A stretch of DNA of 64,000 nt, taken from assembly GCF_003073045.1 (NCBI RefSeq), contig NC_037596.1:29238392-29302391 (forward strand), written 5' to 3'. Positions 1 through 64,000 of the stretch are shown in pieces (position 1 is the first letter of the stretch; each line of letters begins with the position of its first letter). A program made the translations under genes and the position numbers. The DNA comes from Pomacea canaliculata. Lineage: Eukaryota > Mollusca > Gastropoda > Architaenioglossa > Ampullariidae. The notes below the pieces were generated by a model. That model saw only the letters and a program-made list of their open reading frames with translations. It was not told the origin of the DNA and made no database searches.

Positions 1-245
1 GTCATTAAATTGGTCATTAAATTGGTGTGAGAAGAACATGATATTGGCCTGTACAACCTCAGTATATACACATGCACCAAAGAAAATAACATACAATGCT
101 GAGTTTCACGTGTGTACGTCTATGGATCAAGTCCGACAACTAGACACTTGCCACGACACGGCTTATTGTCTCCCCTGCGTTAGTCCTACACATACAGGCA
201 AAGACATGCACTGTGACTAGACCTGCTGTAGATCAATGCAAATAA
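1..245 (+). repeat. Upstream module, copy 1 (before EF-alpha-1)
   Basis: Roughly 200 bp repeated before each transcription unit: CACATGATATTGGCC, a CACGTGTGTACGTCT segment, GACACTTGCCACGACACGG, the core TTATTGTCTCCCCTGC (163-178) and GACCTGCTG. The gamma versions are diverged but keep the core, so it predates the alpha/gamma split. It may be a cis-regulatory module or an old repeat caught in the duplication. Confidence 0.6.
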
Positions 246-721
246 AGGATTCGTAAATTCACTGAACTGTAAAAATAAATTTTGCAAGCTTCTTGTATTC
301 AACAAATGCAATGTTTTCTCTCCCGCTCATATTTAAGTAATGCAGTTGTACAACTTTTGACCTTAAGAACCGATATCATGTTAAAGTAACAGAAATTTTA
401 GCCCTCTGTAAAACATTTTGTCTTTTAATCTTATAAAACTTTAATATTAACAAATAAGTTAGCCTTCCATAGTTCACAATATGTAAAATGAGTGCAGTAC
501 ACAAAACAGTTAAAAGCAATATTTCCTTGATATCAAATTATTTGCATTAATCAGCTGCAGTCTCCTGACTAAACAAGTATCCTAGGAAAGATTTCCTCAG
601 ATTATCTGAGGTAGACCCCGTTATTGTTGTAGTCTAGGAAAAGTAATCAAATCAAGACTAATAAAAACAAGTTAACAATCCAAAAATATCAGAGGTAATG
701 TGTCACTTTTGTTGTTGACAG

Positions 722-745
722 GGCGGACTAATCGGCAATTTCATC
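722..745 (+). other. 5' UTR part of EF-alpha-1 exon carrying the start codon
   Basis: Follows a TTGTTGTTGACAG acceptor and is 24 nt long in every alpha and beta copy (GGCGGACTAATCGG...). This implies splicing from an upstream non-coding leader; for alpha-1 that leader lies left of the window. Confidence 0.6.
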
Positions 746-2880
746 ATGAAGGTTGTCATTCTGTCCTGTCTTCTAGCTGCGGTACTTGGGTAAGCGCTCA
801 TTTCTTAACGGCTTTTAGAGAATTCTAAACTAGTTATGAGTGAAGCTTTTTAAAGAAAGTAAATATTCTTAGACTCTTCCCTTTTTCACATTAAAGCAGT
901 AGAAATGTAATGAATAAGAGTAATTAAATCTCGGACAACACCTAGTACCCCCAATACATACACACACGCACCAAAAGCACATCCTGTTAACATCCTTAAC
1001 AAATGGATGCATGACTAACATAAGACGACGACTAAACCATTTTATTTACTCTTTCAGGGTGGACTACTACGCATTTAAAAGAGGTTTCGAATCTCTCGAC
1101 CTAGACGATGATGGGGTTGTACGGCCAGAGGAACTGCTGGCTTTGATCGAACTAAACGACCTAAACAGTAATCGTTATTATCATCATCATCATCGTCGTT
1201 GTTAGCGACGACAGCATACCGTTAATCCCTTTGTAATCGTTCGCATTCTAGTATCTCATTTTTTTTTTTACCAATTTTTCTTATTAATTCCATTAAGGCT
1301 ACCCACGAGGACTCTATTAATCAGGGCTTCTGCTAAGGCTACATTCTTTGGGGTCCCAGGGACTCCTTCTTCAGATTTTTAAGGGGTCCCTGTTCTTCAC
1401 CTAACTTTGAATTGGACCCCATCGACGAAAATTGAAATGGTCCTCCGAACTTTTAATGCGTACTGTACGCAATTTTTTTGCGTAAGCAGAAGCCCTGCAG
1501 TCTATAGCACAAAATCTGTGTATATAATTTACATTTTCAGGAACTTATACTTGGAATAAAAATAATAATAAGGTTCATGCTTATTAAGCACATGCTTAAT
1601 TGTTGGAATTGTTTTCAAATTTTATTTGCAGACGACGGAAACATAACCATTGAAGAGGATACAGCTACTCAGGTAACCGGGACACCCGAGATTGTAATTC
1701 AGGGTAATTTCAACTACTACGACAAACAAGATGGCGCTGCGGACGGCGTGATCTCTCTGTCAATTGCTCCTGTGCTTTTTGACATCCTCGACGCTGATGG
1801 TGAGTGTGACTGCTTTGACACAAAGAAATTAAAGGGCAGCAACAAAATATATTTCCAGCTCATACCTACATAATATTGTACATAGGACCCTTGAAGAAAA
1901 GATCTTTTGATAGTTGAACAATAACATTTGTGGTTTTGAAATTTTAAAATCGTTTTATGTTGTGAGTTGTGAGCTTCACTTCTAAGACAACTGAATTGAA
2001 TTTTCAGGTGACGGTGAAATCACAGTTGAAGATTGGTTTATGACTCTTCCACAGGTAATATCAGACAGACAGACAAGCACGCACACAGACAGAGAGACAG
2101 ACACACAGACACACTAACAGACACACACACACACACACACGTGCCGTATTTTAAGATGAATAACTGCCCGCTGTTGAGTATAGTCATATCAGACTATATA
2201 AATCGGGAAAGGAAGAGATTGCTTCTTCATCCTTGACGAATTCGTTCTTTTCCTCTTCTTTCTTTTCCTCCTCCTCCTCCTCCTCCTCCTCCTCCTCCTC
2301 CTCCTCCTCATCATCATCATCATCATCATCATCATCATCATCATCCTAACTGGTATCGATCGGAACAAGCAGGTCGACCCGTAAACTGAACGCAAGGTAT
2401 GGGGAGAAGCTGGAGTAAAGTCGTGACCTTTGAACTATTATTGAACTCTGAGTAATTCTCCCATCGTGTATACCTACCCCTCTTTGATGCTTGTTAACCA
2501 GGTTTTCTGCTGCGTTTAAGGGATTTAATTGAAACAGTTCAGTTATCACTTTATGTAAGATATGAATTTTAAATAAAACTTTTAAAGTAGTACAATAAAT
2601 ACAGATTTACAACTAAAAGGAGTATATATATATATTGTCGGGTGATTTCCATATATCTCACGCCATGCAAACTTTGATGGCCTCATCTTGAATAAGAGCT
2701 TGAAAACATTACATAGAATGTAAGTAATTAAAAAGATTCTTTTTAACTTTGTCAAGTACAGTACAGAATGAAGAATAATGTGATTGATGTAACTGGTCAC
2801 ATGTAATCATATTCATATTTTGGTTTTGGCAGGTAATAGATGGCATCGAAAACGAGATTGCGGCCTTATATGCAGCTTAA
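746..2880 (+). CDS. EF-alpha-1: secreted four-EF-hand calcium-binding protein (intact, 5 coding exons)
   Basis: Exons are 746-789, 1058-1167, 1632-1799, 2008-2054 and 2833-2880, all with GT-AG borders and phases 2,1,1,0. Together they give 138 residues. Residues 1-15 (MKVVILSCLLAAVLG) form a signal peptide. EF loop 1 is DLDDDGVVRPEE (29-40), loop 2 D-L-N-N-D-G-N-I-T-I-E-E (49-60) and loop 4 DADGDGEITVED (105-116, Asp at position 12). Loop 3 starts at D82 with D-K-Q-D-G-A-A-D-G-V-I-S: it has extra residues and no acidic last ligand. The mature chain is acidic and has no cysteine, so an extracellular or secretory-granule calcium buffer or matrix protein is a reasonable inference; the role is unknown. 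The start is fixed by the signal peptide and by a 24-nt 5' UTR piece (722-745) after an acceptor (TTGACAG) that implies an upstream leader exon. I do not recognise a named orthologue. Confidence 0.88.
1322..1497. mobile_element. 176-bp MITE in intron 2 of EF-alpha-1 (CAGGG-type, hAT-like)
   Basis: Begins CAGGGCTTCTGCT and ends AGCAGAAGCCCTG, a perfect 13-bp inverted repeat. Absent from intron 2 of alpha-3, alpha-4 and alpha-6, where 'gaggactctat' runs straight into 'atcacaaaatc'. I could not define a clean target duplication. Confidence 0.7.
2119..2140. repeat. Short (CA)n in intron 4 of EF-alpha-1
   Basis: Eleven CA units in the same position as the long arrays of the other copies; alpha-2 has the same at about 17823-17842. 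Confidence 0.8.
2266..2345. repeat. (CTC)n(CAT)n in intron 4 of EF-alpha-1
   Basis: Compound array; length differs between copies. Confidence 0.85.
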
Positions 2881-2972
2881 CAGGCTGATACATCCGACAC
2901 CTGACAGATGAAGGGAGCTGATGTTTCAGCAACCAAGGCTATATAACAGCAAGACACCTGACAGAGACTTTT

Positions 2973-2978
2973 AATAAA
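2973..2978 (+). terminator. Poly(A) signal AATAAA of EF-alpha-1
   Basis: Canonical hexamer 93 nt after the stop codon, in the same context (gacttNtAATAAAattca) as in the other alpha and beta copies. Confidence 0.75.
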
Positions 2979-2980
2979 AT

Positions 2981-62309: not shown

Positions 62310-62465
62310 CACACACACACACACGTGCCGTATTTTAAGATGAATAACTGCCGCTGTTGAGTATAGTCATATCCGACGATATGAATCGGGAAAGGAAGAA
62401 ATTGCTTTTACTGCCTTCACCTTCATAAGCCGTTATTGCCATCATCACTATCTTCATACTCTTTA

Positions 62466-62604
62466 TCTTCCTCCTCCTCCACGAATTCGTTCTTTTTTTT
62501 TTCTTTCTCTTCCTCCTCCTTCTCCTCCTCGTCCTCCTCCTCGTCCTCCTCCTCGTCGTCGTCGTCGCCCTCCTCCTCTTCCTCCTCCTCATCATCATCA
62601 TCCT
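62466..62604. repeat. CTC/GTC/CAT array in unit 6
   Basis: Longest version of the GTC-containing array, upstream of the orphan last exon. Confidence 0.8.
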
Positions 62605-63075
62605 AACTGGTATCGATCAGCAGGTCGACTTGTAAACTGAACGCAAGGTATGGGGAGAAGCTGGAGTAAAGTTGTGACCTTTGAACTATTCTTGAACACT
62701 GAGTAATTCTCCCATCGTGCATACTTACCCCTCTTTGATGCTTGTTAACCAGGTTTTCTGCTGCGTTTAAGGGATTTAATTGAAACAGTTCAGTTATCAC
62801 TTTATGTAAGATATGAATTTTAAATAAAACTTTTAAAGTAGTACAATAAATACAGATTTACAACTAAAAATATAAATATTGTCAGCTGATTTCCCTATTT
62901 CTCACGCCATGCAAACTTTGATGGCCTCATCTTGAATAAGAGCTTGAAAACATTACATAGAATGTAAGTAATTAAAAAGATTCTTCTTTACTTTGTCAAG
63001 TACAGTACAGAATGAAGATAATGTGATTGATGTAACTGGTCACATGTAATCATAATCATATTTTGGTTTTGGCAG

Positions 63076-63123
63076 GTAATAGATGGCATCGAAAACGAGA
63101 TTGCGGCCTTATATGCAGCTTAA
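63076..63123 (+). pseudogene. Orphan last exon of an EF-alpha copy
   Basis: After a GGCAG acceptor, 16 codons read VIDGIENEIAALYAA and stop, identical to exon 5 of alpha-1/alpha-2. Exons 1-4 are absent. Homology to alpha intron 4 starts at the short CA array near 62310, directly joined on its left to a fragment of the gamma downstream spacer. The AATAAA at 63216-63221 is kept. This is a recombination remnant unless the missing exons were lost in assembly. Confidence 0.75.
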
Positions 63124-63215
63124 CAGGCTGATACATCCGACACCTGACAGATGAAGGGAGCTGATGTTTTGACAACAAAGGCTATATAACAGCAAGACAC
63201 CTGACAAAGAATTCT

Positions 63216-63221
63216 AATAAA
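63216..63221 (+). terminator. Poly(A) signal AATAAA after the orphan last exon
   Basis: Same hexamer and context as after the intact alpha genes. Confidence 0.6.
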
Positions 63222-64000
63222 ATTCAAAATGTTTGAAATGAACGACAGTGGCTTTTCGTTATGTGTTCTGTAAGCAGATAATGAGGATAAAAACCCATAA
63301 AAGGAGAGGAAACAACAACAACATAACTGAGTTATTAATAATATCTCAGTTTTGACTTGACATGAAGAACTATTTTCACTCTTTTCCGTCGTGCCATGTA
63401 AAACTAAATTATTGATAAAATGTCTGGAAACAAAATTAAAATGGCAATTTGATTAGAATTTATGGTACATTAAATGTATTAAATTGTTTAACACTTTACA
63501 TTTTTTTCCTACATTCTACCTCGGGATTGATTTTAAAACAATTTCTTGTTCATCTAGTTTGCATCTCGCTTTAATATAAGAAAACAAATGAAATATATTT
63601 CACAATTTCTTATTTGGCTGTTTATTAAGTGTCACCTGGTAAGACAGTTTAGGTTGCCTTTTATTTTAAGGTTTGTAAATGTCTTTGTAAGCTGAAAAAT
63701 TTCTGACCAATAGATTTAATTATCTTCATATTTATTGGCTTGTTTAGATAGTACTTAGAGTTATGAAGCGATCGCGAGACTGAGTCAAGACAACATGAAT
63801 TGTGGTGTGTGCGGTCAGTAAACAGGAGGACGAAGTAGATACATTAATTAGTAATTTACAAATAAATAAAGAATGAATCGACTTGTCAGAAAGGAAATCT
63901 CTGCGCCATAAAAATTGTGAAAAAATACTGTGGACCCCAAATTGTATAAGTCTTCTGAATATTGTTTCTTATCACATAATCCCTTTTTTATATTCTGTGT

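Follow-up and report, generated by a model that had tools for sequence, protein, structure and literature searches.

Calcium-binding proteins have been described from the eggs of the apple snail Pomacea canaliculata, and the accessible text of the articles concerned gives the following picture. The perivitelline fluid contains a calcium-binding protein (CaBP) identified by mass spectrometry, with more than 10,000 transcripts per million (PMC13336756). The vaterite egg capsule, called a key adaptation, contains seven calcium-binding proteins, including XP_025102048.1; for the capsule calcium-binding proteins, an EF hand and a signal peptide are named in a figure legend, and most capsule protein genes are highly expressed in the albumen gland and/or the capsule gland (PMC13394694). 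A calcium-binding protein of aerial eggs was further presented as potentially involved in eggshell calcification (PMC13203566). Another described EF-hand system is lanmodulin, whose hallmarks, in the available part of the source, are 12-13 residues between adjacent EF hands and a Pro at position 2 of at least one EF hand (PMC10232371). Here, we analysed a 64,000-nucleotide stretch of chromosome 7 of P. canaliculata (C7:29238392-29302391; hereafter the window), which holds a tandem array of genes encoding secreted EF-hand proteins.

This array is real and large; it is ordinary in its motif and unusual in the spacing of its calcium loops and in the amino-acid replacement of one of its branches, alpha. 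The window covers an internal part of a ~1.1-Mb cluster on chromosome 7. Whole-genome searches, carried out with one alpha, one P0010-type (P0013) and one gamma protein against 440,159,624 bases in 24 contigs, detected at least 58 distinct exon-3-type places in C7:28.32-29.46 Mb, including nine inside the window; exon-2-type rows and the rows on C6, C8 and C11 were left out of this count and the figures are lower bounds. A preliminary description of the window had proposed a tandem array of secreted EF-hand genes, which is confirmed and larger than claimed. The two gamma loci and the three orphan delta exons that it listed (exon-1-like leaders near 7593, 36341 and 55103) are present as well, while its eight alpha/beta loci are reduced to seven, the eighth being a lone exon 5 near 63.08 kb. 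All family elements of the window lie on the + strand: seven loci of the alpha/beta type, two of the gamma type, one isolated alpha exon 5 and the three delta leaders (window positions; methods in brackets):

746..2880, +, a1, intact, 138 amino acids (aa); exons 746-789, 1058-1167, 1632-1799, 2008-2054, 2833-2880 (spliced frame, GT/AG at all introns)
7593..7636, +, delta 1, exon-1-like leader, AG before and GT after (exon blastn and splice inspection)
11183..12906, +, g1 (gamma), intact, 131 aa; exons 11183-11226, 11497-11606, 11850-12017, 12635-12681, 12880-12906 (spliced frame)
16449..18603, +, a2, intact, 138 aa; exons 16449-16492, 16761-16870, 17334-17501, 17710-17756, 18556-18603 (spliced frame)
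24894..26068, +, a3, exons 1-4 open, exon 5 not found; exons 24894-24937, 25204-25313, 25584-25751, 26022-26068 (exon blastn, splicing)
31312..33352, +, a4, intact, 138 aa; exons 31312-31355, 31616-31725, 31994-32161, 32370-32416, 33305-33352 (spliced frame)
36341..36384, +, delta 2, exon-1-like leader (exon blastn, splicing)
39187..41160, +, a5, five exons, frameshift in exon 3 as assembled (tblastn, exon blastn, splicing)
43110..44821, +, g2 (gamma), five exons, exon 2 start altered, with GC where g1 has its AG acceptor (exon blastn, splicing)
48998..51160, +, a6, all five exons recognisable, with a stop and a damaged frame from exon 3 onward, probably a pseudogene, outer boundary approximate (tblastn, exon blastn, splicing)
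55103..55133, +, delta 3, truncated exon-1-like leader (exon blastn, splicing)
57800..59717, +, a7, intact, 138 aa, identical to P0001 (LOC112569355); exons 57800-57843, 58104-58213, 58426-58593, 58864-58910, 59670-59717 (spliced frame, RefSeq identity)
63076..63123, +, lone alpha exon 5, remnant, 100% to a1 exon 5 with 12-base flanks (exon blastn)

Four alpha genes (a1, a2, a4 and a7) and one gamma gene (g1) are therefore intact in the window, their five exons encoding 131-138 aa. The four alpha models are open 138-aa frames with GT/AG at every intron, and spliced a7 matches the RefSeq protein P0001 letter for letter. A homology search with a spliced alpha protein returned six proteins, all of them P. 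canaliculata RefSeq entries; the closest RefSeq relative of g1 is P0007 / LOC112569373 (96%). EF exons were detected by tblastn with E-values as low as 3e-47. Exon-level blastn across the window placed exons 1 to 5 in the same order at six of the seven alpha loci and at both gamma loci; by this search exon 5 of a3 was not found, and no additional exons were found in the window for the three delta leaders. Exon lengths are 44/110/168/47/48 bases in all eight 138-aa alpha copies that were spliced, and loops 2 and 4 are interrupted by introns. As the window contains no N, the order of its tandem copies was not created by scaffolding, and a scaffold artefact was ruled out for it, the sole gap of the 304 kb examined being outside. 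Last exons given by the gene-finder script for a3, g1 and the copies at window-relative 109070 and 173352 were spurious and were not used.

Family exons occur all through 240 kb of flanks, where either strand is used and the leaders fall into at least five types; no edge of the array was reached there. The single strand reported in the preliminary description thus holds inside the window, while the wider cluster uses both. Nine additional weak places were detected in the flanks and the window stretch by local tblastn only. Beyond the cluster, at least seven further exon-3-type places lie on C7 at 24.4-26.7 Mb, and weaker whole-genome matches were obtained at C6:27.88-27.90 Mb (four), C8:11.55 Mb (one) and C11:4.52-4.54 Mb (two). 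A splice-pattern scan of the C7:26.43 Mb and C6 stretches revealed hydrophobic leaders, a 110-base exon 2 and a 168-base exon 3, with loops 1 and 2 spaced 20 residues apart (hand count); exon 4 was visible only on C6 and leader exon lengths are uncertain. Since these outlying copies share the leader type and the exon 2 and 3 lengths of the array, the family is probably older than the chromosome-7 array.

Some observations concern the assembly and annotation of this region. A 100-N assembly gap lies inside the array at C7:29363584. Isoforms X2 and X3 of RefSeq LOC112569356 correspond to two neighbouring tandem copies (C7:29321294-29328847, window-relative 82903-90456), a naming that reflects either a shared transcript or a merged model. 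The submitted 223-aa model P0012 (C0Q70_13021) appears to fuse exons of two members, with the leader exon in another frame. The PcPV2 subunit genes Pc07G012571-2 (perivitellin) bear the same chromosome number as the array in the accessible text describing them (PMC6129957).

Each protein of the family is composed of a leader, an acidic body and four EF positions. The leader is a hydrophobic exon in the intact models, judged by inspection, in line with the signal peptide announced in the preliminary description. Its three plausible calcium loops were likewise recovered: loops 1, 2 and 4 are canonical or near-canonical and usable, with EF3 degenerate in all 18 proteins compared, and ligand positions of the usable loops are largely conserved, not strictly fixed, in this set. 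Four proteins were tested against Pfam, and EF-hand_1, EF-hand_5 and EF-hand_6 passed the cut-off in the three alpha proteins, EF-hand_7 and EF-hand_6 in gamma. Isoelectric points and cysteines were computed after removal of the first 15 residues, a cut that does not correspond to just the leader in P0011, P0012, P0016 and P0017. The isoelectric point ranges from 4.05, apparently the lower limit of the routine, to 4.41 in all 19 family proteins. A lack of mature cysteine had been proposed and holds for all intact window models; in the wider family, 7 of the 19 proteins carry one or two, one of the two in P0011 still belonging to the leader.

The spacing of the loops is the structural peculiarity of the family. 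Loop starts are 20/33/23-24 residues apart in 17 of the 18 proteins (20/32/23 in P0011), which, with 12-residue loops, leaves 8, 20-21 and 11-12 residues between adjacent loops. In human calmodulin, loop starts are 36/37/36 apart, and the snail proteins differ from the calmodulin/neuronal calcium sensor (NCS) superfamily by this spacing and by their leader, so that a cytosolic calmodulin-type gene was excluded. With lanmodulin, they share four EF positions, a small exported protein and short spacers within both EF pairs; they differ from it by their spacer lengths, by the degenerate EF3 and by the rarity of Pro at loop position 2, found only in loop 4 of P0002 and P0004 (2 of 18) and absent from loops 1, 2 and 4 of the 16 others and from all intact window models. 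The likeness is one of layout, not of demonstrated sequence kinship. To our knowledge, such a compressed EF layout is known only from lanmodulin and other bacterial proteins.

AlphaFold models of an alpha and a gamma protein both have six helices. In Foldseek searches, lanmodulin (8fns / 8dq2) ranked first for the alpha model and second and third for the gamma model, with a probability of 1.00, E-values from 2e-3 to 6e-3 and template modelling scores of 0.41-0.53. Lanmodulin pairs EF1 with EF4 and EF2 with EF3 in a three-helix bundle and is selective for lanthanides. For both snail models, one calmodulin or NCS-type EF pair aligned over nearly the whole model, part of it being skipped; from the range and the aligned length, this calmodulin-lobe match appears to use EF1 and EF4 and not neighbouring EF hands. 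Against a lanmodulin-like fold, it should be said that the fold matches are weak, none reaching E <= 0.001, and that lanmodulin was absent among the 50 VIA-align matches listed for each of the two models. With these E-values in mind, the proteins in their predicted shape seem closer to a compact metal-binder of bacteria than to an ordinary calmodulin.

Relatives were sought with a profile of ten members, scoring being confined to the 7,975 candidates with the most words in common. At an E-value of 0.01, 173 proteins passed, and the best 120 of 173 were considered. The 19 top matches (E 3.3e-27 or better) all belong to P. canaliculata and to the same contig, and the next one drops to 1.1e-13; the remaining matches of this list are general EF-hand proteins, the organism-labelled ones being mainly bacterial, plus one animal (Lamellibrachia) and one eukprot entry. 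In this one broad profile search, the family of the array was thus seen only in P. canaliculata. Some metagenome or bacterial proteins (e.g. P0020 and P0103) have a similar pair-gap-pair spacing, 24/31/26 and 24/33/24, but their similarity to the snail family is only E 1e-13 and weaker. Because the profile search by construction favours this spacing among its matches, horizontal transfer from bacteria was not concluded. The best match of one member in the PDB had an E-value of 3.5e-5, and that of the family profile, a small calcium-binding protein, 2.1e-12 over the EF motifs of generic calcium binders; these searches gave no close match to a well-known cytosolic EF-hand protein, clear orthology to which, according to the preliminary description, would have refuted it.

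The alpha branch is further distinguished by an excess of amino-acid replacements. Over the mature part of eight full-length copies, the nonsynonymous rate (dN) exceeded the synonymous rate (dS) in 28 of 28 pairs, these being non-independent, with ratios of 1.06-2.59 (Nei-Gojobori). A self-written codon model was applied to 123 mature codons of ten alpha copies, i.e. a1, a2, a3 without exon 5, a4, a7, c3-c6 (genomic copies of P0003-P0006) and c9 (the copy at window-relative 96176). With a single ratio, omega was 1.79, with twice the log-likelihood difference (2dl) at 10.9 versus omega 1, and fixing the branch proportions gave the same result. In 60 null simulations, modelled without recombination, omega never reached this value (mean 0.99, maximum 1.48). 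Subsets of seven, five and six copies gave 1.99, 2.06 and 1.76 (2dl 10.3, 8.8 and 5.7). By exon, the signal was strongest in exon 2, with an omega of 2.49 (2dl 10.6), against 1.18 for exon 3 (0.35, not significant) and 2.60 for exons 4-5 (4.5). The comparison of M2a with M1a yielded 58.6, with one third of sites at omega 4.8; 29 sites had a naive posterior above 0.7, 20 of them at residues 16-65 (EF1-EF2 half), and no such site fell on position 1, 3, 5 or 12 in any of loops 1, 2 and 4. In two close pairs, replacement differences (44/564) exceeded those of introns 1 and 3 (31/893; one-sided Fisher p 0.0003), silent ones (10/174) showing no significant difference from the same introns (p 0.12), and in three non-overlapping pairs replacement differences (79/846) exceeded silent ones (15/261; p 0.04).

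Other results speak against positive selection in alpha. One null simulation gave a 2dl of 10.6, the largest of the set, though none exceeded an omega of 1.48. The gamma copies have no replacement excess (dN > dS in three of six pairs, pN/pS 0.89), and among P0017-type copies dN exceeded dS in two of three pairs. When alpha exons 2 and 3 alone were compared among 11 copies, only 27 of 37 pairs had dN > dS, 18 of the 55 pairs having been dropped for unequal length. Moreover, the introns of the deeper pair c4-c5 are more diverged (103/502) than their replacement (35/282) or silent (5/87) sites, which implies that gene conversion contributes. All four combinations were present in 66 of 630 column pairs in exon 2 and in 27 of 741 in exon 3; together, the exon 2 pairs and the c4-c5 introns make gene conversion between alpha exons likely, and such conversion can mislead site models. 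On balance, positive selection in the alpha branch is likely from these codon comparisons, but not proven. The preliminary description missed both the compressed EF pairs and the amino-acid excess of alpha; it was also too narrow in extent, given the ~1.1 Mb of the cluster and its use of both strands outside the window.

The rest of the window agrees with its claim that every gene belongs to the EF family: no other gene was found, among ten other open reading frames scanned, none of which passed a Pfam cut-off, and Rfam gave 0 matches in the window. A reverse-transcriptase-like fragment (52614-52913, -; RVT_1, E 0.065, below cut-off) is a probable retrotransposon remnant. Intergenic repeats include a large CA-rich minisatellite (26738-27314), which sits after a3, the copy lacking exon 5, and long TTA/AAT triplet arrays (21921-22153 and 36983-37505).

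As to function, we consider it somewhat probable that these proteins serve egg calcium supply, which is the best reading available to us: a small, acidic, mostly cysteine-free, exported, multi-copy calcium binder fits the published egg proteins. According to this proposal, female reproductive glands (albumen and capsule gland) would export the proteins into the egg fluid and the capsule, where they would carry or buffer calcium and may contribute to keeping calcium carbonate in its vaterite form for capsule and embryo. More copies would mean more product, and selection would alter the exposed surface of the EF1-EF2 half but leave calcium binding intact. Searches with canonical EF-pair models placed no match on C7 (0 of 75, from 150 scored among 286 candidates, and 0 of 24); if an egg EF-hand protein is encoded on C7, it would thus most likely belong to this family. 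The ampullariid egg CaBPs (XP_025102048.1 / Pca_154_3.36) resemble the array proteins in being secreted EF-hand proteins of the same species with several paralogues. A point that counts against the egg reading is the position of XP_025102048.1, which, compared by accession order and not by sequence, interpolates to about LOC112568808, outside the family block LOC112569335-379 (five points, leave-one-out error up to 90, with XP-LOC pairs taken from the accessible part of PMC8533556). A link of this protein to the array genes by accession order was therefore not accepted; it is probably not one of them, but perhaps a related protein encoded at another site of the chromosome.

The preliminary description had left shell matrix, egg and mucus side by side as possible destinations; the egg is the option best supported for this species by the literature as available to us, none of the published egg proteins being tied to the loci by sequence. 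That the proteins are instead shell-matrix or mucus calcium binders of mantle or foot seems unlikely, even though the same secreted acidic anatomy would suit them, 12 proteins are common to the capsule and shell proteomes and EF-hand proteins occur in land-snail mucus, as stated in the accessible text of PMC13394694 and PMC11940790, respectively. The high-output secreted calcium binders published for P. canaliculata are egg proteins in the available portions of PMC13336756 and PMC13394694. The fast amino-acid change of alpha also argues against a mantle or foot origin. Such change is common among reproductive proteins. We regard as very improbable that another metal is bound, or that the proteins act as secreted signals or in defence and bind calcium only incidentally. 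Lanmodulin does stand within the top three Foldseek matches of both models, two proteins carry its hallmark Pro in loop 4, and most high-posterior sites lie in the EF1-EF2 half; yet the spacing is unlike that of lanmodulin, most members have no such Pro, and the calcified egg offers calcium a ready role.

The array could also be largely a by-product of runaway tandem duplication, in which a few copies are functional and gene conversion among diverged copies is the main source of the omega signal. The state of the copies weighs on this side and against the egg reading, as three of the nine EF-exon loci (a3, a5 and a6) are broken or lack parts and a splice site is changed in g2; the four-combination column pairs and the c4-c5 introns described above point in the same direction. 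Conversion, however, shifts silent and replacement sites alike, yet omega stays high in the three subsets of alpha copies, and the null simulations, albeit free of recombination, do not attain the observed value. We hold this explanation to be quite unlikely. Returning to the egg reading, a joint scheme is possible and tentative: an animal secreted EF fold in which EF1/EF4 and EF2/EF3 would be paired around short shared helices in a lanmodulin-like manner, encoded by dozens of genes, with alpha under positive selection that spares the ligands, and acting as an egg-mineral calcium carrier; members with Pro at loop position 2 might be unusual in the metal they prefer.

Our literature searches found no description of the array, of its replacement excess or of a lanmodulin-like animal protein; subscription papers and supplements were largely outside their scope, and we make no claim that these are unpublished. 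Apple snails are major rice pests for which the aerial, calcified egg is a key adaptation; the proteins supplying calcium to its capsule are poorly defined. The ~1.1 Mb cluster provides a concrete gene set with which the egg-calcium role and the relation between gland output and copy number can be addressed. If the compressed EF layout is true, the family would constitute an animal example of a bacterial-type plan and a test of EF-hand metal preference.

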